Positions 16,041-28,036 of a stretch of 35,868 bases of DNA are shown here, piece after piece. A program made the translations under genes and the position numbers. Location: the NCBI GenBank assembly GCA_028713285.1, contig JAQTOP010000029.1:1-35868 (forward strand), in the 5' to 3' direction. The DNA is from Terrimicrobiaceae bacterium (GTDB taxonomy: Bacteria > Verrucomicrobiota > Verrucomicrobiia > Chthoniobacterales > JAATET01). The first letter of the stretch is position 1. Every line of letters begins with the position of its first letter. The notes beneath the pieces are model-generated. The model was given only the letters and a program-made list of their open reading frames with translations. It did no database searches and was not told where the DNA came from.

Positions 16041-16772
16041 ATGTTGTTCAATCGCCGGATGGCGCCCGCCCTGAGGCCGCGCGTCTTTCACGCCTTTTCG
16101 CTCGTGGAGATGATCGCCGTCGTCGCGATCATCGTTATCATGGTCTCCCTTCTCGGGCCGGCGATCAGCTCGTTCTCATCCACAGCCGGGCGCAAGGGAG
16201 CGGTGAACATCCTGATGAATACGCTGGAACAGGCTCGCGCCGCGGCGTTGGAGAAGAACTGCGATGTCAGCGTGCTGCTCTGGCAGCGCGAGTATCCCAG
16301 TCGGGACGCGATCATGGTCATCCGCGAACCCTCGCCGTGGATTGTGGATGCCAAGGGCGCGGCGGAGACAAACCTGATTCCGCTCACCAAATGGATTCAA
16401 CTCCCGGAAGGCGTGCTGCTTCACAAGCCGACCAAAGGGGCCACAGTTTTTAGCAGTGGAAATGCCGCATCCATCCTTTCTGACGAGTTCAGCCAGATTC
16501 CGAATGGCGGCGGCGGCGCCGCGCCGCCACACGACGACCATGTCGCAATCGTCAAATTCAATTCCACGGGCGCCATCGTCGCCCCCAGCGATCCCGCCAA
16601 TGCCCGCATCGTCATCACCGAAGGCGTCCGCGGTGTCGGAGGCACAGAGGCCGTTCTGGCTGGAAGGAAGGAGCAACAAAACACGCCCGGCGGCGGCTTT
16701 GACGTCATCACCCTGGCCCGCTTCACCGGCCGGCCCCGCCTGGATGTCACCACCCTCGATGCAACGCCATAA
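16041..16772 (+). CDS. Prepilin-like protein, Verru_Chthon cassette D type (GspH/FimT-like)
   Basis: 243-aa pilin-like protein. The leader ends RVFHA and is followed by FSLVEM, so cleavage would fall between A18 and F19 with the hallmark Glu at mature position 5 (E23), then a hydrophobic helix to about residue 41. Residues 50-70 (ILMNTLEQARAAALEKN) resemble the GspH/FimT helix with its 'AR.EA..RN' pattern. The rest is Gly/Pro-rich and beta-like. Most pseudopilins have Gly at -1; here it is Ala. ATG 16041 is adjacent to GGGGAG with no spacing, so the start could instead be TTG 16044 or ATG 16059. It is the first gene of an overlapping operon. I match it to the Verru_Chthon cassette protein D family from memory. 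Likely a minor pseudopilin. Confidence 0.75.
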   Translation: MLFNRRMAPALRPRVFHAFSLVEMIAVVAIIVIMVSLLGPAISSFSSTAGRKGAVNILMNTLEQARAAALEKNCDVSVLLWQREYPSRDAIMVIREPSPWIVDAKGAAETNLIPLTKWIQLPEGVLLHKPTKGATVFSSGNAASILSDEFSQIPNGGGGAAPPHDDHVAIVKFNSTGAIVAPSDPANARIVITEGVRGVGGTEAVLAGRKEQQNTPGGGFDVITLARFTGRPRLDVTTLDATP

Positions 16773-17307
16773 CTCGCCGCCGCCCCCCCGCATGCCAATG
16801 GCATCCGGGGCCGCATTTTCCCTCATCGAGATTGTCATCGCGGTGGGAATCATTTCCTTCGCGCTGGTCGGCATCCTCGGTCTTTTCCCGGCCGCCATCA
16901 ATTCCGCCACCGACAGTCAGCGCGAGACGCAGGCGGCTTTGATTGCCCACCGCATCTTCAGCGATCTCGGCACGCAGGCCCCATTTCAGCAGACGAAGGA
17001 CGATCTCACGAAGCCCGACAGCGTCGCGACGGTGAATCTCGCGACAACGACCAAAAAAACCTATACAGCCGAATACGACGAGGGCGGCATGCTGCCGGGC
17101 CATGCGTCCGGCACCGGGGCGAAGACCACGGGCGCGCCCGTCTATTACGTCGAAACCATCGTGGAGCCCTCCACCCAGTCGCCGAATCTCGCCCGCGTCG
17201 AGATCGACGTGAGCGCCCCCGCCAGCGCGCCCGCAGCCCGGCGCAAGACCTTCGTCTTCGTGACCCTGTTAAACGCCGAGCCTCTCGCGCTGACCGCCAC
17301 GCCATGA
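16759..17307 (+). CDS. Prepilin-like protein, Verru_Chthon cassette B type (GspI/PilV-like)
   Basis: 182-aa pilin-like protein. The leader ends SGAA and is followed by FSLIEI, giving cleavage between A19 and F20 and Glu at mature position 5 (E24), then a hydrophobic segment ending FPAAINSA. The helix continues SQRETQAALIAHRIFSDL, as in PilV/GspI proteins. The body is short and beta-like, ending in the ARRKTFVFVTLL stretch. The start at 16759 overlaps gene D by 14 nt and supplies a positively charged leader; ATG 16792 is possible but would leave a leader without Arg or Lys. Its stop overlaps gene C by 4 nt (ATGA). Matches the Verru_Chthon cassette B family as I remember it; probably a minor pseudopilin that pairs with D and C. 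Confidence 0.72.
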   Translation: MQRHNSPPPPRMPMASGAAFSLIEIVIAVGIISFALVGILGLFPAAINSATDSQRETQAALIAHRIFSDLGTQAPFQQTKDDLTKPDSVATVNLATTTKKTYTAEYDEGGMLPGHASGTGAKTTGAPVYYVETIVEPSTQSPNLARVEIDVSAPASAPAARRKTFVFVTLLNAEPLALTATP

Positions 17308-18173
17308 TGCAGGCCGCCGTTTTGCCGACCCGCCCGGTGGGCCTTCGACGGTCCGCCTTCCGGATCTGCCGTGGCTTCACTCTGCTCGAGTTGCTGGTCT
17401 CCATGTCGATCCTCGCCCTCCTGCTGGTCATCCTGATGGGGATGGTCGATGGCGCGACGAAGCTCTGGCGCCAGAGCGAGAATCGCGTGGACAGCTTCCG
17501 CGAGGCCCGGGCGGCGCTCAACATCATCGCCTCCGACCTGCAATCCATCTACGTCGCGGCCAATCCGAAGAACTATTCCGCCGCCACTCCGAAATTCTTC
17601 GCCTTGAATTCCCCGGATGGCGCCGAGGCTGCGATCAAGGAGTCCAAGTCGGACAGCCTGTTTTTCGTTGCCGCGCTGCCGTCCGATTCCCAGAAACCCG
17701 GCGCGAACAAGAGCGACCTGTGTTCGGTCGGCTACTTTCTGGCCTTCGCGCCGGCCAGTCTCGGCAACGTGAAGGAGAGCATGAACCTCTACCGCTACCT
17801 GCGCAGCAGCGACGACACCTTTGCCGCGCTCAACGATACGCTGCCCCTTGCCCGGGGCGTCACCATCGGACCGAGCGGCGAAGAGGTGCTGGCGCGCAAC
17901 ATCACGAGCCTGAAAATCCAGGCCTATGTCGTCGATCCCACGACGCACAAACCGGCGGAATTCAAGGCCTCTGCGACGCAACCGGCGCCAGACTTTGTCG
18001 ATATCGAGCTGACCGCGCTCAACAATGACTCGGTGAAGCGCCTCAAATCGAAGGCGGACTGGAAGGATACCACCTCGATCACCTACAACCAGAACGCGCG
18101 CACCTTCTCCACCCGAGTGAACATCTCGTCCACTCTGCCGCAGATCCCTTCAGCCGCTCCGCCCAGCCCGTGA
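17304..18173 (+). CDS. Prepilin-like protein, Verru_Chthon cassette C type (GspJ/PilW-like)
   Basis: 289-aa pilin-like protein with a canonical type IV prepilin site: ICRG then FTLLEL, cleavage between G24 and F25, Glu at mature position 5 (E29), and a hydrophobic helix to about residue 48. The following helix (KLWRQSENRVDSFREARAAL, then ASDLQSIY) resembles GspJ/PilW, which also have an R...L..D pattern here. The soluble body contains LFFVAALPSDSQ and a VGYFLAF strand. The start overlaps the B stop as ATGA (17304-17307) and its own stop overlaps the GTG of A1, so D-B-C-A1 is one translationally coupled unit. Matches Verru_Chthon cassette C. A role as minor pseudopilin is inferred from order and N-terminus. 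Confidence 0.78.
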   Translation: MMQAAVLPTRPVGLRRSAFRICRGFTLLELLVSMSILALLLVILMGMVDGATKLWRQSENRVDSFREARAALNIIASDLQSIYVAANPKNYSAATPKFFALNSPDGAEAAIKESKSDSLFFVAALPSDSQKPGANKSDLCSVGYFLAFAPASLGNVKESMNLYRYLRSSDDTFAALNDTLPLARGVTIGPSGEEVLARNITSLKIQAYVVDPTTHKPAEFKASATQPAPDFVDIELTALNNDSVKRLKSKADWKDTTSITYNQNARTFSTRVNISSTLPQIPSAAPPSP

Positions 18174-21100
18174 AGACGCCGCGCTCACTCCACAGAGCCC
18201 GGGCCGGATCGGCCCTCATCACGACTTTGCTGGTCATTGTCGTGCTCACGATCATCGTCGTGGCCTTCCTGCAAAGCATGGCGAGCGAGAAGCAGGCCGC
18301 GCGAAGCTACCTGAACCGCTACCGCGCCCAGCTCGCATCGACGGCTGCGGCGGACGCCGCCAAGCAGCTCATCTTTGACACGATCTCGGATGCGGCGAAC
18401 CTGGCAACTGCGCGCCAGCCGGCTTCCCCCTATACCTACAAGGTAAATTTCGTCACCTGGGCTTACTCGCCGAACGGCACCACCTTCGCCCCCTTCTATA
18501 CCGGCATTCTTTCGAACGCAATTCCCGCGTCCTCTGGCGGCACCGGGACGCAAGCGATCACCGATGTCAGCCGAACCGTCTGGCTCGCGTCCGATCCGGC
18601 AAATGAAAAAGCGCCCAGTGTCACCGACCCGTCAGCCAACGCCAGTGACCCGAATCTTTTCAGCGGGTTGGGACCCGATGTCCGATGCAACATAAACTTT
18701 CCAATGTCTACCCGCAGCGGCGTAAAGCACTACTGGATCGACCAATCCGGGACCGCCTACCCCGTCGGCTGGGTGAAGGTTACCAGCAGCGATCCGCAAC
18801 TTACGATCCGCTATGCTTTCTGGGTGGATGATGAAATGGGCCGTGCCGATCTGCGCGCTCTGGGTCATGGCGACCAGCAGATTCATAAAGACACCGTATA
18901 CAAAGGTCTGCCCACCGATCTCGTCGTCAATCAAAGCGGGGACCAGTCCTACTTTTCCAATGCAGATGCCGCCAAGATTGCCATCGATACGAATCGGGAA
19001 CTCGTCGGCATGAGTCCGCTCACTGCGAAACAGCTCGTCGCAAAATCGACTGCCGACCAACTCACGCAGGACACCGTTGCCGTGACCACCAGCCCGGTTC
19101 CTCCAACCACGACACCTTCCACTTCTCCGACCATTCCGAGCGTTTACGACCTGATCCCCTATGGCCCGCAAGCGGGAAAACCAAAGCTGAATCTCAACGA
19201 CCAGGTCGCTCTGGAGTCGGATCCCGTTCGCTCCATTGCAACCATCCGCGATTTCATCCGCACCTCCTTGCCGCAGGATCCGAGTGGCGATCCGGCCTAC
19301 CCGAAATCCGTCTTCTTCAACCGCAAAAATTCCCCTCCCGGCAATCTCTGGCGCATCGCAGCTTCCATCCACGATTACATTAGTCCCGCCGACTACCCGA
19401 CCCTCGCCCCCGCCCTTCAGAAGCGATTTAACGACTCCATCGGTGCCGCCTACGACTTCATCATCAAGAGGAAAATGGCGGGCGCTGCCCCAGGCATTTG
19501 GGATCCCCGATGGGATAATATTGCGATGGAAACTCCCGACAAGACTCTGGACTCGCAAGTGGCCAATACGACCGACGGGCGCTGGTATGGAATCAAGCCC
19601 GTCCCATTCATTCATGCCTTCGACATGAACCTCACCCTCTCCGGAAAAACCTGCACCGCCACCTACGATTTCTGGCTCTGGAATCCGAGCGACACCCAGA
19701 GTGTCTCATTGGCGAACTGCTACATCATGGTTTTCAAGACGCCTTTCTGCCCTTTCTCCCCCGCGACCACCACGGGCGGCCTGAGCGTGGAGGGATTGCC
19801 CTACTATCCTTACGATATTTTCGAGATTCCTTCTGCTCAGCAAGGCCGCCTCAACCCCGCCGAACTACGCAAAATCACCATTAGCAATACTGGAAGTAAA
19901 GCCTATCAAACCAATGAGACCCCTCCTGGATCGCCTCCTAAACTTCAGACCGGCAACCAAATGGGGATGGTGCTTTTTCGCGTCGATGGCTCAGGCGTCA
20001 TCCGCGTTCTCGACGGTTACTTCACCAGTGACGCATTCGGCGCTGCGAGCAAGGCTCCCGCCGCCACGCAAAGCTACGCATCCGCCGGCGGAGTGGACAG
20101 CGGGACTACCGATTGGGACACCAAAGATCGCCGCCAGAGTCTTGCGCTTTCCCAGACAACCTGGTTTTTCAGCAGCACACCTTTCAAGGGAAGCCTGGCG
20201 AATTTTCAACAAATCGGTCGCTGGTATGACGGTCCGGCGAACTACACCACAAGCAGCAGCGATCCCATCACCCATATCGCGCTGGCGCCAATGAAGAGTA
20301 TTGGCGAGTTGGGCAATATCTTCGACCCTGTCAACGACGTTAAAGTCGCAACCAAGACAACAGGGGGACGTATTAGTGGCTCGGACACACCAAGCGGCAA
20401 TAGGATCTCCCGCGGCGGCAAAACGCTCACCGTCGGTCAATTCGACGACTTTTTCGACAACCTTCAGACAGGCAACCCGGCCAATCCCGCCGCCGCTGCA
20501 GTCTCACACTGGACATCCGCCTATGAGAAGTATTTGCGCCTCGCCGATTCTGTTCTTCTCGACATCTTCACGACTCGCAGCGCCTCCGACTATCAGGTGC
20601 TCCGGCCCCTCAATCTCAATACCCCACGCCCCGGTGCCAGCTCCGGCCCCTCGCTCAGCCCGCTCTCAACGTATCTCGGCTCTCTCGCCGGACACACCGT
20701 GAAGGACGCAACCGGCACCGCCTACCAGCTTCAAGCTCTGAAAGCTTTTCAGGATGCCATCCGCCAGCGCCTCTCGGGCAGCGATTGGAAAAAGTGTCTT
20801 CCCTTCCGCAACGCTGCCGACCTCACGCTCCTGGGGATTCCGAAAGAAAGTCTCTCCGGCTCCTCTCCACCGGCATCCATTCCTCTCAACATCCGTTCGA
20901 AATCGCTCTTCGCCGGCAATACCGCCGGACATTTCACCAAGAATCCAAAACTCAACTCGATCACCTTCGGCGACAATGTGAGCACCACCACCGTGCTTAA
21001 ATCCAGGAACTCCGAGCGGCAGGCCCCCTTTGCCGCACTCGCCGAGCAGACAACCTTCCGCTCCTATCGCTATCGCATTTATGCAGTCGGGCAGGTGCTG

Positions 21101-21253
21101 CGCAACGCACCCGCCGGAAGCACCGCCGCTCCCGTGCCCATCTCCACCGTTTACCAGTGCTTCACCTACGACTTGAACCCCGTCTATGACCCTGCTGACC
21201 CCAATGATCCCGTCAAACTCCATCCGAAGCTCCAGCGTGTCGTCGATTATTAG
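18170..21253 (+). CDS. Large pilin-like protein A1, Verru_Chthon cassette A type (GspK/PilX-like N-terminus)
   Basis: 1027-aa protein with a basic leader (residues 1-12) and the sequence GSALITTLLVIVVLTI, then an amphipathic helix EKQAARSYLNRY. It lacks the usual Glu at position 5, as GspK does. The remainder is predicted extracytoplasmic: a conserved-looking YAFWVDDEMGRAD at 215-226, a Thr/Pro/Ser-rich linker at about 306-322, KPKLNLN at 337-343, and a long C-terminal region with many aromatic and Asn residues. GspK proteins are around 330 aa, so this is about three times larger. The start is GTG 18170, overlapping the C stop as GTGA; the 3' end overlaps the next secreted gene by 50 nt. A Verru_Chthon cassette A assignment is from memory. 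Its role as a large tip subunit is inferred. Confidence 0.78.
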   Translation: MKTPRSLHRARAGSALITTLLVIVVLTIIVVAFLQSMASEKQAARSYLNRYRAQLASTAAADAAKQLIFDTISDAANLATARQPASPYTYKVNFVTWAYSPNGTTFAPFYTGILSNAIPASSGGTGTQAITDVSRTVWLASDPANEKAPSVTDPSANASDPNLFSGLGPDVRCNINFPMSTRSGVKHYWIDQSGTAYPVGWVKVTSSDPQLTIRYAFWVDDEMGRADLRALGHGDQQIHKDTVYKGLPTDLVVNQSGDQSYFSNADAAKIAIDTNRELVGMSPLTAKQLVAKSTADQLTQDTVAVTTSPVPPTTTPSTSPTIPSVYDLIPYGPQAGKPKLNLNDQVALESDPVRSIATIRDFIRTSLPQDPSGDPAYPKSVFFNRKNSPPGNLWRIAASIHDYISPADYPTLAPALQKRFNDSIGAAYDFIIKRKMAGAAPGIWDPRWDNIAMETPDKTLDSQVANTTDGRWYGIKPVPFIHAFDMNLTLSGKTCTATYDFWLWNPSDTQSVSLANCYIMVFKTPFCPFSPATTTGGLSVEGLPYYPYDIFEIPSAQQGRLNPAELRKITISNTGSKAYQTNETPPGSPPKLQTGNQMGMVLFRVDGSGVIRVLDGYFTSDAFGAASKAPAATQSYASAGGVDSGTTDWDTKDRRQSLALSQTTWFFSSTPFKGSLANFQQIGRWYDGPANYTTSSSDPITHIALAPMKSIGELGNIFDPVNDVKVATKTTGGRISGSDTPSGNRISRGGKTLTVGQFDDFFDNLQTGNPANPAAAAVSHWTSAYEKYLRLADSVLLDIFTTRSASDYQVLRPLNLNTPRPGASSGPSLSPLSTYLGSLAGHTVKDATGTAYQLQALKAFQDAIRQRLSGSDWKKCLPFRNAADLTLLGIPKESLSGSSPPASIPLNIRSKSLFAGNTAGHFTKNPKLNSITFGDNVSTTTVLKSRNSERQAPFAALAEQTTFRSYRYRIYAVGQVLRNAPAGSTAAPVPISTVYQCFTYDLNPVYDPADPNDPVKLHPKLQRVVDY

Positions 21254-22055
21254 CGCATTCCTCACACTCGCACTCGCCGTCCTCCTCAGCCTTGGCGTCC
21301 AGGCCCAGGAGCCGCCGGCCTCGACCGGAGAGCCCGCCGTTCCAGCGGAGACCGCACCTGCCTCCGAACTCACCGAGGCCATTCGCTACGTCAACCTTCT
21401 GGCCTACCGCGGTGAAGCTCGCATCCTCCTCGACGGCAAGATCGCGGTGTCGAACACCATGTCTGGCGATATCGCGGAATTTACGGCCATCACGCCCGGT
21501 GCGCACCGCATCGAGATCGTTCCGCGGCACGGAGCCGGACATTTGCTCACCACCGACTTCCAGGTCGCTCCGCGTTCCCGCACGACACTCATCCTCGTAG
21601 GCGGCAATCCCACTGGCGTGGCCGACAGGCAGGTGCCCATTGCATTACCCTTGGTCGCCGACACCCGACCCGTCTCACCACGCCCACGGCAACCGCAGCC
21701 CGGCGAGCCGCCGTTGCCGTGCAAACTCATCCTCGTAAATACAGACATGCGCGGCCCCCTTCGCATCACGGCGAAATCCGGCGACCAGTCCAAAGATGTG
21801 GACCTCGCTTCCGGCAAAACCGCCGAGCTCGATCCGTGGCCTATCGGACCGCTTGAGACTCGGGTTCTTTCCCTATTTCGGCTGGCGAGTGGTGACCCGG
21901 CCACAGCGGAACTCGATCTCTTCAAGCCGGAAAAGCCGATCACCTACTATTGCATCTACTACGCAACTGGCGCGACATCCCCCATCCACGTCCTCTACCT
22001 CGCCGCGCAGACGAATGGCGGGTTTGGCTACCGCGCCGACGAATCACGCCAATAG
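21204..22055 (+). CDS. Secreted protein of unknown function, coupled to A1
   Basis: 283 aa from ATG 21204 (ATG 21186 is an alternative, adding 6 residues). A signal peptide is clear: a Ser-rich n-region, a Leu/Ala hydrophobic core and probable cleavage after VQA before QEPPAS. A Pro/Glu/Ala-rich spacer follows. Then come what look like two beta-sandwich units: YVNLLAYRGEARILLDGK... with PGAHRIEIVP, and, after a Pro-rich hinge (RPRQPQPGEPPLP), KLILVNTDMRGPLRITAKSG... ending in YYCIYYATG. The first unit faintly recalls DUF4397-type domains ('VN...A...I..DGK'). The reading frame starts 50 nt inside A1, so translation is coupled. A decayed partial copy of its end lies immediately downstream. No function can be named; a periplasmic or surface partner of A1 is inferred. 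Confidence 0.7.
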   Translation: MIPSNSIRSSSVSSIISAFLTLALAVLLSLGVQAQEPPASTGEPAVPAETAPASELTEAIRYVNLLAYRGEARILLDGKIAVSNTMSGDIAEFTAITPGAHRIEIVPRHGAGHLLTTDFQVAPRSRTTLILVGGNPTGVADRQVPIALPLVADTRPVSPRPRQPQPGEPPLPCKLILVNTDMRGPLRITAKSGDQSKDVDLASGKTAELDPWPIGPLETRVLSLFRLASGDPATAELDLFKPEKPITYYCIYYATGATSPIHVLYLAAQTNGGFGYRADESRQ

Positions 22056-22223
22056 ATTGCAGCCATCATCGAGGCAGCCATGCGAAACAATTTCACTCCG
22101 GAAAAACCAACCGCCTACGACTGCATCCTCTACACAACCGGCGCGGAATCTCCGGTCAGCGCCCTCTTCCTCGCCGCCGATGCCGATGGCGATCTCGGCC
22201 GGGTGATCGAGGACACCCGCTAG
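22056..22223 (+). pseudogene. 47-codon remnant duplicating the 3' end of the upstream secreted gene
   Basis: ATG 22080 to TAG 22223 encodes 47 residues. From its codon 5 (22092-22178) it aligns without gaps to 21921-22007 of the upstream gene: 18 of 29 residues and 65 of 87 bases match by my hand count (FxPEKPxxYxCIxY.TGA.SP...L.LAA). It is in the same frame, directly after the upstream stop, with IAAIIEAA (22056-22079) between. It has no signal peptide or ribosome binding site. Most likely it is the tail of a decayed paralogue or tandem duplicate; a small expressed protein cannot be excluded. Confidence 0.6.
22212..22223. repeat. 12-bp direct repeat, left copy (GACACCCGCTAG)
   Basis: This copy contains the last codons and stop of the 47-codon remnant. 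It recurs identically at 22370-22381, bracketing the palindromic element, as expected for a target-site duplication. Confidence 0.6.
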
Positions 22224-22425: not shown

Positions 22426-25218
22426 ATGCGCCCGGAGAAATCGTCCCAGCCGGCAGGATGGCCAGCCCGGGGCTCGGCGCTCATTTCGACGCTGCTCGTC
22501 ATCGTCGTGCTCACGATTGTCGCCGTCGCCTTTCTCCAGAGCATGACCATGGAGCGGCAGGCTGCGCGTGGTTACTTGAATCGCTATCTTGCCGAATCGG
22601 CGGCGCGCGCCGGTCTGGCGGATGCGATGCGCCGGCTGGAAAATGGCGCCGGCGATTCGCAGTTCCATTTCGTTGTCGCGACCGAGAATCCGGACACCAT
22701 CGACGAACGCCTTGCACTTCTTACTCTCAATCCAGGAAAGACCACGGTGCGCAAGGAAATTGCCCTGGCGAGCGTGCCCGGCGAGGCAGGCGCGAGCACG
22801 AACTCGTTCAAGCTGGACCTCACGCCGCAGGCGACAAAGCGCACGCAGCGCACGGTGGCATGGCGGCCGCTCAACGACGCGAAGGGCCGCGAAGTGGCGC
22901 GCTACGGATTTTGGGTGGATGCCGCCGGCAGCAAGCAGGATGCCCGAATGCACTCGGGGATCAAAAACCCGCACACCCATACGGAATCCGGCTCGAAACG
23001 CGATGCGCTGCAGACCCTCGCCGAGGTGCCGCTCGTGGCCTCCGACGGCACCGTTTTTTCCCCGGGGCAATCGACGCCTTTGCGAGCGTATCAATATTTC
23101 ACCGACGCGAAGGACCGCATTCCGCTTTTGACCGCGGCGAGCATCAATCAGGTCGCCGTGCCCTCGCCCGGGGCGTCGGAGCGGGATTTCACCATCGATG
23201 TGCCGGCTGCATTGCTCACCCCCGAGGGCAAGCCGCGTCTGAATTTGCAACGCCTGAAGTGCTACATCGACGGCGACCCATTCGAAGAGCCGGGCGAGGA
23301 GTTCGACGGGGACGGCAAACCGATCCCGATCGAGTCCGTCGCCTACCCCGGTCTCCCGGTGGACCAGGGCCCAACGAAGCCGCGTTTTGAACTTGTCAAG
23401 CAACTGCTCAACGAGGACGGCACGCACCCGCCGGAGACCAAAAACCCATGGGGCTACGGAAACCTCGAAATCGTCACGCGCATCCTTCCCGCGACGGATG
23501 CGAACGGAACGCACACGCAGGCCCGGCAATTCGTCGCCAACCTGCTCGACTACATTGACAGCGACATTATTCCCACGAGCGACGGCGACCCCGGCCCCGC
23601 CCCGAGCAGCGGCAGCGTCTCCGGGCAGCACCCGAGCCTCGAGGACTTCGTGCTGCCCGCACAGCCCGCCCCTCCCACCGTGCTCGGGGTCGAGGCCAGG
23701 CTCGATCCGGGCGGGGGAATCCGCGGGCATCCCTACATCACCTACGTCGGGCAGGGATTCATCTTCAATAGCGCTTCCACCCGCGTGCTCGGCTGGACGG
23801 GGATGGCCTACCCGTGGTCCGCAACAGCGAAGATGGGCAGCGGCTCCTCGACCTATTACCAGGTCGAAATGCAGGTTGGCCTTGCGGGCTCCGCGAGCGG
23901 CGGCCGCGGACCGCGCGTGATGAGCGAGAGGTCCAGCGATCCGCAGGGCTACTTCCTGCACGGCTGGCTCGCGCAGGAATCGAATTTCCGAGGGGAATAC
24001 CGAACCAGGGAATTTGCCCCCCGGAGCTACATCCTTTTCCCCCGCGGCTGGTCGGGCAGCCAGCTGGACATGGCCAACGGCTACTTCTCGTGCGGCAACC
24101 CGATGGCGGTGACCTTCACCAACCTCGCGTCGAAGATCGAGGTGCTGCGCCTCATTTACAAGGATCCCGTCCGACAGAACCAGCGCTGCCTGGTGCAGGA
24201 TCTTGGAGCGCTGAGCGCCCTGCCGCGTCAGCCAAGGAACTTCACTCCATCGACGGCACTCGTCAAACTTGGCCAGCCCGGCTACAGCGCCTTCAGCGAT
24301 TGGCACTACCTTGGAGATCCCCGGCTGAATTTTCAAAAGCCCGATTCCACGCATGCCGAGTGGGTGCTGGCCAGCACCATCCTGCCCGCTACCTCCAGCG
24401 ACACGGGGGCGAAGGGCGTGCTGCCAGCTGGAAATGCGGACATTTACCACACGCCGCTCAACAACCGAAAAGATCCACTCCAGGGAATGGACGTAATGAC
24501 CAACAAATGGCTGTTCAACCAAACTGGCCTCATAAATCACTTCCCCGCCGCCATCGACCCGACAAAATCAAACATCGGCTATCGCCCCAGCCCGTCCGGC
24601 GGGAAGGATGCCCAGTTTTACGGGGAGGCGCCCGCGCCCGCGATGCTGTCCTGCGCCGAACTCGGATTCATTCACGCCGGGGCCCCATGGCAGACGCTCA
24701 CGCTTTTCAACGATCCGGAACGCTTCAAGGACAGCGATCTCGACCACGCCGACTGGCTGCTGCTCGATTACATCGACATCGGCACCCCGCCGCGCCACCT
24801 CAATGCCGCAGGCCAGCGCGAGGTCTATGGCCAGATCAATGGAAACACGGGCAACCGCACGACGCTTCGCGCCCTGCTCCAGGATGTGGGGGACGTCGCT
24901 TCACCTGCCAGGGTGATCGATCAGGTGCTCGCGAGCGCGCGGCGGCCCTTCGTCGAGCCGGCAGCCATTTTCTCCGAACCGGGATTCAAGAACGATCTGG
25001 CCAATGACTCGGATCGGGAGAGATTCGTCGGCCAGATGTATCCGGCGCTCACCGCCCATTCGCAGAAATTCACCGTCTATTCGGCCGGCGAGGCGCGGGA
25101 CAATGGGCGCACGCTCTCCCATGTCACGCTCGCCGCCGACGTCGAGCTTCGCTACGAAAAACAGGCGGACGGCACTCAACAACTCAAACCTCGCGTCTTA
25201 AGAACCTACATTCCATGA
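22426..25218 (+). CDS. Large pilin-like protein A2, second Verru_Chthon cassette A-type paralogue
   Basis: 930-aa paralogue of A1. The N-terminal block from GSALISTLLVIVVLT to QAARGYLNRY differs from A1 at only about 7 of 39 positions. The rest is strongly diverged, keeping short landmarks such as RYGFWVD near 160 and GKPRLNLQRL near 270. As in A1 there is no Glu at pilin position 5, so the N-terminus resembles GspK/PilX. The body is large and extracytoplasmic in character, with Gly/Ser-rich and Pro-rich segments (for example near 395-410) and aromatic-rich regions. It has no D, B or C genes of its own and would have to share those upstream. The ATG at 22426 has no strong ribosome binding site; the stop overlaps the next gene as ATGA. 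Function inferred only by analogy with A1. Confidence 0.72.
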   Translation: MRPEKSSQPAGWPARGSALISTLLVIVVLTIVAVAFLQSMTMERQAARGYLNRYLAESAARAGLADAMRRLENGAGDSQFHFVVATENPDTIDERLALLTLNPGKTTVRKEIALASVPGEAGASTNSFKLDLTPQATKRTQRTVAWRPLNDAKGREVARYGFWVDAAGSKQDARMHSGIKNPHTHTESGSKRDALQTLAEVPLVASDGTVFSPGQSTPLRAYQYFTDAKDRIPLLTAASINQVAVPSPGASERDFTIDVPAALLTPEGKPRLNLQRLKCYIDGDPFEEPGEEFDGDGKPIPIESVAYPGLPVDQGPTKPRFELVKQLLNEDGTHPPETKNPWGYGNLEIVTRILPATDANGTHTQARQFVANLLDYIDSDIIPTSDGDPGPAPSSGSVSGQHPSLEDFVLPAQPAPPTVLGVEARLDPGGGIRGHPYITYVGQGFIFNSASTRVLGWTGMAYPWSATAKMGSGSSTYYQVEMQVGLAGSASGGRGPRVMSERSSDPQGYFLHGWLAQESNFRGEYRTREFAPRSYILFPRGWSGSQLDMANGYFSCGNPMAVTFTNLASKIEVLRLIYKDPVRQNQRCLVQDLGALSALPRQPRNFTPSTALVKLGQPGYSAFSDWHYLGDPRLNFQKPDSTHAEWVLASTILPATSSDTGAKGVLPAGNADIYHTPLNNRKDPLQGMDVMTNKWLFNQTGLINHFPAAIDPTKSNIGYRPSPSGGKDAQFYGEAPAPAMLSCAELGFIHAGAPWQTLTLFNDPERFKDSDLDHADWLLLDYIDIGTPPRHLNAAGQREVYGQINGNTGNRTTLRALLQDVGDVASPARVIDQVLASARRPFVEPAAIFSEPGFKNDLANDSDRERFVGQMYPALTAHSQKFTVYSAGEARDNGRTLSHVTLAADVELRYEKQADGTQQLKPRVLRTYIP

Positions 25219-25748
25219 AAGCTTTCCTATGCAGCCTGCTCGCCACGGCTTGCACCGCACTGTCAATCGCCGCGAGCCTCGCGCAGACGCCACCGATTCA
25301 AATCGAAAGTTTCCAGGTCGAGCGGGCCACCCTGCCCGGAACGCAGCGGCCCTGGACCAAACTCACCTGCACGATCAACAACCGCGGCACCTGGGCCGAC
25401 GGCCTCTCGTTCAACTACACCGTGCTGGCGGAACTCGGCGGCAGCGCGAAATCGCGCAACGTGCTCACCGGAGGCGCCACCTACATCAATGTCCCATCGG
25501 GCAAGTCCCAGGCGGTGATGTATCTCAGCCCGAACGCCGTGGCCCGCTTCGGCGAACCCGTGGCCGCCAGCGTCCAACTGGACCGGGGCGAGCGGACGAT
25601 TCAGACTTTCAATTGGACGGGAAAATCGAGTCCGGAAGCCGACTGGGCGAGCAAGTATCCGACACAAAACGGCGCCCTGCTGAACGTGCGGGCGACTCCC
25701 TGGAGCCTGCTGGATTCGGAGCGGGGCGGAGACCTGATCGTCAATTAG
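25215..25748 (+). CDS. Secreted protein of unknown function, coupled to A2
   Basis: 177-aa exported protein. A signal peptide (MKAFLCSLLATACTALSIAAS) precedes LAQTPPIQIESFQVE, with cleavage likely near SLA-QTP. I recognise no family. The mature part looks like a single beta-sandwich: FQVERATLPGTQRPWTKLTC opens the domain, and alternating strands run through INNRGTWADGLSFNYTVLAEL and a late SVQLDRGERTIQTFNW. It could be a CARDB/Ig-like fold ('comparative' NNRGTW...). The start overlaps the A2 stop as ATGA (25215-25218), mirroring the secreted gene behind A1 although the sequences do not resemble each other. The pairing suggests a dedicated partner of A2. Last gene of the cassette region before a 116-nt gap. 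Confidence 0.68.
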   Translation: MKAFLCSLLATACTALSIAASLAQTPPIQIESFQVERATLPGTQRPWTKLTCTINNRGTWADGLSFNYTVLAELGGSAKSRNVLTGGATYINVPSGKSQAVMYLSPNAVARFGEPVAASVQLDRGERTIQTFNWTGKSSPEADWASKYPTQNGALLNVRATPWSLLDSERGGDLIVN

Positions 25749-25864: not shown

Positions 25865-28036
25865 ATGAATAAAATGCTCTTGCGATTCGCGTGCGTTCTG
25901 GGCGCCGCGCCTTTGCTGACTTCCGCGCTCGCCGATACCGTGAGCGCTTCCGCGGCGCTGAGCGCCACCGTGCAGGTTGCCGGGCCGCGCACGGGAACCA
26001 GTGGCACGAATTTCCTCAACGTCGAAGGCTCGAACAACAACACATTCGCCTCCTATGGCGTGCTGGATTTCAACGTCAATTCCTTCAACCTCGCCTTTGC
26101 GGCCACGGCCGTCTCGAATCTCTCTCTGTCGCTCACCGAGGCGAACTCCGCATTTACCGTGGCGAGCGGAGCCCTGGCGTTTTATCTCGTCACGGACACG
26201 ACAACGAGCATCGCCAACGACGGCTCGAGCCCGCTCATTTACAATAGCGCCTTTGCACCCCAAGGCCTTGGCACCCAGTTGGGCGCGACACCGTTCCTGC
26301 TCGGGACCGGCAACTTTTCGACCAACTCGGGAAACACCGGCTCCGGCACGGTGGACACGTATTCGCTCTCTCTCAGCAGCGACGCGCAGATTTACTTCCT
26401 CAGCCAGCTCAACTCGGCCGGCTCGAAGCTCCGCCTCGTCGTCGCTCCGACGGACGCCACGGGCGCCTCGACCTGGGCCGGCTCGACGAACAGCACCACG
26501 GCCAACCGCCCGCAGCTCACATTCAACGTGACGCTCAATCAACCGACCCTCACATGGATCGGCGGCAGCGGCACGTGGAATGCCACAGGCGGCGCCGACT
26601 GGAGCGGCGGAGCGTGGGATTCCACCAAGACGGCTGTCTTCGCGACCGGCTCGGGCACCGTCACACTCGGCACACCCGTCACGACAATCGGCATCAAGTT
26701 CGCGAGCAGCGGATACACCGTCGCCGGAACAGCCGCCAACCCGCTCACACTCTCCAGCGACGCGGGGGGCAATGCCATCGCCGTGGACGGAACCGACGCC
26801 ACGATCAGCGCCGTCCTCGCCGGCTCCTCCGGCCTGGCAAAAAATGGGACCGGCCTGCTCGCCCTCGAAGGAGCGAATATTTTCACCGGAACCGTAACGA
26901 TCAATTCCGGCACCCTCCAGATCGCCGCCGATGCGGCTCTGGGTGCGGCGGCCAACGGCGTCGCGCTCAACGGAGGCACCTTGCGCGCGAAGACCGGCAG
27001 CGCGGTCACACTTGGCGCGGGCCGCACGCTCACGGGCTCCGGCACTCTTGATGGGAACACCGGCCTGCAGCTCGACGGGGCGGTGGATGCCGGGGCGCTC
27101 ACCGTCACCTCCAGCGGTCCCGTGATCTTCGCCGGCCCGTCGGCCGCTTTTTCCAGCATCAATCTCCAGAGCGGCAGCCATCTCACCGTTTCCGCTCCGC
27201 TCACCAGCACCGCGCGCACGACTTTCTCCGGCGACGGCACGGTCACTCTCGGTGGAGACAATTCCGCCTACGGTTTCGGCATCACGATGAGCAAGGGCGC
27301 GGGCTCCGTCGGACCGACGGTGGCTCTTGGCTCGGCCAGTGCGCTCGGCACGAGCACGCTCTTCCTCAATGCCGGCACGCTGAGCGCGTCGGGGAATTTC
27401 ACGGGCGCAAATGCCATCTCCGCGCCGGTGAGTCTGGGCGGAAGCGTGACACTCAGCGGCGGCGATATGGAGTTCGCCAGCTTCGGGTTCTTCGGAAGCA
27501 CCGCCAAACGCCTCACCGTGCTGAACAACGTCACGATCTCCACAGCCATCACCTCCGGCACAGCGGCGAATACGTTGATCAAAGCCGGCGCGGGAAAATT
27601 GACGCTGACGGCGGTCAATTCCTACGGCGACGGCACGCAGATCCTCGCGGGCACGCTCGAAGTGGCCAGCGCCGGCTCGCTTGGGCTGGGAGACGTAACC
27701 GTCGCTGCCGAGAGCGCCATCCCCGCCGTGTTGCGGCTGGATTCGAATGCCGCCATCGACGACCTCTCGAACGTCTTCATCGTGAATTCGGCGGGTCCGA
27801 GTTCGCTCGACCTCAATTTCAGCAGCTCTCTGTTCGAGAGCGTGAACAGCCTCACGATCAACGGCACACCCATCGCCCCCGGCGACTACAGCGCATCCAA
27901 TCTGCACGATTACCTCACGGGAACCGGAAATCTGCGCGTGCTCTCCGCGGTGCCCGAGCCCGGCATCGTGGCGTTGCTGCTCCTCGGCGGGATGGCGATG
28001 GTGGCGTGGGTGCGGCGACGCCAGCCTGCCGCTTAG
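25865..28036 (+). CDS. PEP-CTERM protein with autotransporter-associated beta-strand repeats
   Basis: 723-aa surface or exported protein. A signal peptide ends at about ALA before DTVSAS (residue 23). Residues about 28-220 resemble a DNRLRE/CBM96-type beta domain. From about 228, LTWIGGSGTWNATGGADWS opens the repeat region typical of autotransporter-associated beta-strand proteins, with clear units near 328-375 (GTGLLALEGANIFTGT...INSGTLQ) and 575-620 (GAGKLTLTAVNSYGDGT...LAGTLEV). The C-terminus is a sorting signal: VPEP followed by a hydrophobic stretch and RRRQPAA (696-723), the exosortase (EpsH) target. The frame is open upstream to 25229, but ATG 25865 starts the signal peptide. No exosortase gene is present here. 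It is a likely surface-anchored adhesin or extracellular matrix component. Confidence 0.88.
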   Translation: MNKMLLRFACVLGAAPLLTSALADTVSASAALSATVQVAGPRTGTSGTNFLNVEGSNNNTFASYGVLDFNVNSFNLAFAATAVSNLSLSLTEANSAFTVASGALAFYLVTDTTTSIANDGSSPLIYNSAFAPQGLGTQLGATPFLLGTGNFSTNSGNTGSGTVDTYSLSLSSDAQIYFLSQLNSAGSKLRLVVAPTDATGASTWAGSTNSTTANRPQLTFNVTLNQPTLTWIGGSGTWNATGGADWSGGAWDSTKTAVFATGSGTVTLGTPVTTIGIKFASSGYTVAGTAANPLTLSSDAGGNAIAVDGTDATISAVLAGSSGLAKNGTGLLALEGANIFTGTVTINSGTLQIAADAALGAAANGVALNGGTLRAKTGSAVTLGAGRTLTGSGTLDGNTGLQLDGAVDAGALTVTSSGPVIFAGPSAAFSSINLQSGSHLTVSAPLTSTARTTFSGDGTVTLGGDNSAYGFGITMSKGAGSVGPTVALGSASALGTSTLFLNAGTLSASGNFTGANAISAPVSLGGSVTLSGGDMEFASFGFFGSTAKRLTVLNNVTISTAITSGTAANTLIKAGAGKLTLTAVNSYGDGTQILAGTLEVASAGSLGLGDVTVAAESAIPAVLRLDSNAAIDDLSNVFIVNSAGPSSLDLNFSSSLFESVNSLTINGTPIAPGDYSASNLHDYLTGTGNLRVLSAVPEPGIVALLLLGGMAMVAWVRRRQPAA

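Follow-up and report, generated by a model that had tools for sequence, protein, structure and literature searches.

Minor pilins of the H, I, J and K types sit at the filament tip, where the capping subunit is without Glu5 (PMC10191384). The window analysed here, a 35,868-nucleotide stretch from a Terrimicrobiaceae bacterium, carries four adjacent genes that resemble such a set, the last of them encoding a protein of three times the normal length for a cap. This raises the question of whether the four proteins build the tip of a type IV filament, and what so large a subunit would do there.

Gene layout and family assignment

The cassette occupies positions 16041-21253 of the + strand, with all four reading frames open. 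It comprises three minor prepilins, GspH/FimT-like D (16041-16772, 243 aa), GspI/PilV-like B (16798-17307, 169 aa) and GspJ/PilW-like C (17304-18173, 289 aa), followed by A1 (18170-21253, 1027 aa), an enlarged GspK-like prepilin. The prepilin N-termini read A/FSLVE in D, A/FSLIE in B, G/FTLLE in C and G/SALITT in A1; Glu5 is kept in the first three and absent from A1. Positions, N-termini and the missing Glu5 are as the original prediction gave them. Its wording of four overlapping genes applies to the B/C and C/A1 junctions, with 4 nt shared at each, but not to D and B, which are separated by a 25-nt gap when the B start at 16798 is used.

Gene by gene, the curated families that match best or nearly best are Verru_Chthon D, B, C and A, together with families of the GspH/I/J/K type. 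D scores 32.2 bits against TIGR02596 (cut-off 70), B 33.2 bits against TIGR02598 (cut-off 51.4, scored from a start 15 nt upstream), C 60.6 bits against TIGR02599 (cut-off 256.5) and A1 34.3 bits against TIGR02600 (cut-off 332.3). These matches are mostly N-terminal, and the generic prepilin N-terminal motif is the only one above its cut-off. Because all four proteins score below the curated cut-offs, they are, as judged from sequence, divergent relatives of the Verru_Chthon families and not members. The fit to these families that had been proposed for the cassette thus survives the profile search as kinship, but not as membership. The literature searched assigns no role to the families of the Verru_Chthon cassette.

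Comparison of the cores with minor pseudopilins

Profiles were compared on the cores only, with the shared N-terminal helix removed so that pilin N-helices would give no trivial match. The Gsp comparison sets were taken from T2SS operons of the same class and sorted by length and position, so that a few members are possibly misfiled. In this matrix the D family pairs with GspH (95.8%, P 7e-9), the C family with GspJ (91.0%, P 1.1e-6) and the A family with GspK (96.4%, P 1.4e-9), with each mismatched pairing below 1%. When the columns of the A profile were shuffled, its match to GspK reached at most 0.2% in 30 control trials. D, C and A are homologous to GspH, GspJ and GspK outside the N-helix, which bears out the predicted correspondence for these three and the view of A1 as a giant K subunit. 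For B, GspI is at the top of the row, yet at 0.8% the match is not significant.

Among Pfam families, GspH was found in 12 of 20 D family members (E 0.069 for the window D alone) and T2SSK in 8 of 36 A family members, A1 not among them, while T2SSI matched the core of the window B weakly (residues 112-153, E 0.019). Searching PDB sequences with the C, D and B families returned mainly pilin N-helix matches, and with the A family none. Beta-propeller (WD-40) matches in the PDB were dismissed for the D family, as no single stretch passes the threshold.

Predicted structures of C and A1

The single-chain model of C (pLDDT 83.8) has the GspJ pseudopilin fold. Its nearest PDB structures are XcpW (Z 12.4) and GspJ (Z 12.1), and EpsJ matches at a Foldseek E of about 2e-5. 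After these GspJ proteins comes the Thermus pilin TTHA1219 (Z 11.0), with a drop to Z 4.0 for the unrelated folds that follow.

The model of A1 is of lower quality (pLDDT 62.6, pTM 0.71), with about 40% of the residues at low confidence. A fold search of the PDB gave no confident whole-chain match, and GspK structures were absent among the matches. An Ig-like region is predicted at about residues 474-640, with weak fold matches (Z 6). Lamin-type folds among these were set aside as weak; the Pfam lamin tail domain was found in one of 36 A family members (E 0.042).

A relation to GspK is displayed by six motif-like segments, which follow each other in identical order in the genome's own GspK, in A1 and in A2, a second A-type protein encoded downstream. 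The segments were chosen by eye, guided by profile alignments, and the significant alignment covers only the later four. The largest extra stretch of A1 lies between segments 2 and 3, at the site of the Ig-like region. A1 is a GspK relative in which the order of the motifs is kept while long insertions spread them apart.

The lack of a confident whole-chain match for A1 would also suit four pilin-like membrane proteins that act outside any filament, with A1 as a large periplasmic protein anchored in the inner membrane. This reading is nevertheless very improbable, since the one-to-one core matches to GspH, GspJ and GspK, together with the conserved gene order and the motor-linked loci described below, are hard to explain without assembly.

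Recurrence of the cassette in Verrucomicrobiota

Scanning 84,980 species genomes for relatives of A yielded 40 loci, nearly all labelled Verrucomicrobiota, with a few unplaced or doubtful MAG names. The order D-B-C-A is found at 24 of the 30 A-picked loci with enough upstream sequence. Among 17 such loci picked with C, 13 have D-B-C-A and three B-C-D-A; the two sets share members and are drawn from the same class. Since the same order recurs in both, it is more than chance, and the likeness to H-I-J-K that had been noticed in the window extends to these loci. At the 40 A-picked loci the A proteins are without Glu5, while D, B and C retain it. An automatic tally had given six instances of 'E5' for A, from stop-to-stop frames that included upstream sequence; the N-termini themselves are without Glu5. 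Relatives of A grade into TIGR02600, reaching up to 282.8 bits at locus L187 and exceeding the cut-off at L191 and L193.

At E <= 1e-12, 225 of the 286 genomes sampled from the class had a match to the C-family profile. This figure is an upper estimate of the cassette-bearing genomes among them, because some matches may be ordinary GspJ. Copy numbers from the same scan are lower bounds, as at most eight candidates were scored per genome. Multiple complete cassettes in one genome were seen directly, for example four in G089. Such multiplicity fits a single DNA-uptake system poorly, which speaks against the idea that the cassette caps a competence pilus. That idea draws on weak N-terminal matches to ComG families, which span only the shared N-helix region, and we regard it as the least probable of the readings considered.

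Secretion and pilus machinery

The motor had been predicted to be encoded elsewhere, and the genome does hold the necessary parts: four secretins, several ATPases and four platform proteins were matched genome-wide, along with a prepilin peptidase on C134. The own-genome motor genes are not adjacent to the window cassette. PilY1 (PF05567) had no match in the genome, and equally none in the control genomes. A canonical T2SS operon on C93 encodes GspG, H, I, J, a 309-aa GspK and GspD, E and F, with GspL and GspM assigned by position only. As this operon has its own GspH, I, J and K, the window cassette is additional to the T2SS. On C73 there is a Verru_Chthon set above the cut-offs, in the order C-A-D and with no B gene found adjacent to it. 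Beside this set (L028, 1220-2100), segments of about 90 bases are repeated and give repeated peptides in several frames.

A hint as to which motor is involved comes from three loci where the cassette has PilB, PilC or a GspG-like pilin as a neighbour. At L119, D-B-C-A is immediately preceded, on one strand, by genes for PilT (above cut-off), PilB, PilC and two pilins; at L195, PilB and PilC lie upstream of the cassette; at L113, the genes that come after D-B-C-A encode an E-like protein, PilC and a GspG-like pilin. The PilC link amounts to two independent cases and not three, because the genomes of L119 and L195 are related. The motor-linked PilB proteins are closest to the genome's own PilB on C89 (58-59%, against 39-41% for the C93 GspE), and the motor-linked PilC proteins to its PilC on C111 (54-77%, against 28-29% for the C93 GspF). 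The GspG-like proteins at L113, L072 and L108 resemble the C111 pilin most, and far more than they resemble the Gsp proteins of C93. C89 and C111 therefore carry the candidate motor.

These comparisons bear on the possibility that the C93 T2SS uses the cassette as an alternative tip, whose large A1 head would recognise a secreted substrate; examples would be the PEP-CTERM repeat protein encoded nearby or some other large secreted protein. The genome has a complete-looking Gsp operon, and several cassettes lie near large predicted extracellular proteins. For piliation, moreover, the HIJK set of a T2SS can stand in for that of a T4aP and vice versa, and in T2SS such sets make contact with secreted effectors (PMC10191384). 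Against this, H, I, J and K are already present in the C93 operon, the motor genes that adjoin cassettes are closer to C89 and C111 than to C93, and L119 includes the retraction ATPase PilT. On balance, we consider a T2SS tip unlikely.

Genes E and A2 downstream of the cassette

Two related genes, E and A2, extend the unit past position 21253. Gene E (21237-22055, + strand, alternative start 21186) encodes a predicted secreted protein with a weak match to DUF4397 (E 0.0003, below cut-off); the same domain is matched in seven of 18 E family members. An E-like gene immediately follows A at about a dozen other loci. Beyond E, at 22080-22223 (+ strand), a short open stretch has a translation that by eye resembles the E C-terminus and is perhaps a duplicated remnant.

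A2 (22426-25218, + strand, 930 aa) is a second A-type, GspK-like prepilin without Glu5. It scores 29.6 bits against the GspK family NF037980 and 26.6 bits against TIGR02600, both below cut-off. The N-helices of A1 and A2 are 70% identical over 56 residues, while BLASTP leaves the heads unaligned. No full-length relative of A2 was found in the 286 genomes of the class, where matches are confined to the N-terminal part. Recent gene conversion of the two N-helices is not favoured, because many third codon positions differ between the two DNA sequences.

A proposed tip complex with an enlarged cap

Taken together, the data are best explained by a type IV filament in which D, B, C and A1 serve as the minor pilins H, I, J and K, with A1 as a GspK-like cap enlarged by insertions, and we consider this reading probable. 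It would place A1 at the cap because the cap subunit of known HIJK tips is, like A, without Glu5 (PMC10191384). By analogy with T4P and T2SS biology (PMC10191384), the prepilin peptidase would process D, B, C and A1, which would then form a tip complex with the Glu5-lacking A1 as its cap. The PilB/PilC motor would insert the major pilin beneath this tip, and the filament would display the A1 head past the inner membrane. The likely partners in the own genome are PilB on C89, and PilC and the GspG-like pilin on C111.

The insertions of A1 would probably engage a surface, a polymer or a partner protein, for which E is a candidate. Whether they would serve display or binding, as against secretion, we judge to be evenly balanced. 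The D-B-C set may also accept A2 as an alternative cap, a possibility to which we give slightly less than an even chance. A broader possibility, which we put forward tentatively, is that in Verrucomicrobiota a single PilB/PilC motor with a single major pilin serves several interchangeable HIJK tips, each with a different giant GspK cap. In the present genome, A1, A2 and the C73 copy might be such caps, and one machine could then present distinct heads; this application is equally tentative.

The cassette shares with the GspHIJK and PilHIJK tips of T2SS and T4aP the H-I-J-K order, the distribution of Glu5 (in D, B and C, not in A), the core homology of D, C and A and, in the predicted model, the GspJ fold of C. 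It differs in the size of A1 (1027 aa, compared with 309 aa for the own GspK), in the divergence of D, B and C from known families, in the frequent presence of the extra gene E and in its usual location away from motor genes. The Verru_Chthon families (TIGR02596, TIGR02598, TIGR02599 and TIGR02600) are the nearest or next to nearest curated relatives, but the window genes score far below their cut-offs, with mostly N-terminal matches, and the above-cut-off sets have other orders, C-A-D on C73 and B-C-D-A at L191 and L193.

Precedent for enlarged minor pilins is offered by modular type IV pilins such as PilB and PilC of Streptococcus sanguinis (PMC8179133). As in A1, a minor pilin there bears large extra sequence and may act at the filament tip. 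In those proteins the addition is grafted after a small pilin module, whereas in A1 it lies between GspK-like motifs and contains no confidently identified known domain. The concept of modular pilins would thereby extend to the cap subunit of a tip complex, with the extra sequence scattered through the GspK-like region. Through the kinship with tip proteins, a family that previously had no role gains a possible one. The tie to GspHIJK gives relatives of the Verru_Chthon families a testable function, and these genes recur in many Verrucomicrobiota, sometimes in several copies per genome.

Further genes near the cassettes

Overlapping the end of A2 is a gene for a 177-aa secreted protein (25215-25748, + strand) that matches the Amuc_1102 family weakly, at 19.9 bits against a cut-off of 55. 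It resembles the genome's own Amuc_1102-like protein at C17 (BLASTP E 1e-4), which is adjoined by two tandem secretins. The product of the next gene (25865-28036, + strand) is large, contains beta-strand repeats of the TIGR02601 type and carries a PEP-CTERM signal at its C-terminus; a search of the genome for exosortases gave two matches, one on C79 and one on C20. PEP-CTERM-like proteins of 234 and 260 aa also follow the E gene at L064 (4614-5318) and L065 (4769-5551), the latter having sequence in common with the PEP-CTERM protein of the window. Very large predicted secreted proteins of 1153-1455 aa are encoded downstream of the cassette at L071 (12714-17081, with Ig-like and fn3 domains), L079 (2697-6968, with Ig and TIG domains), L077 (6823-10320) and L108 (13079-16540).
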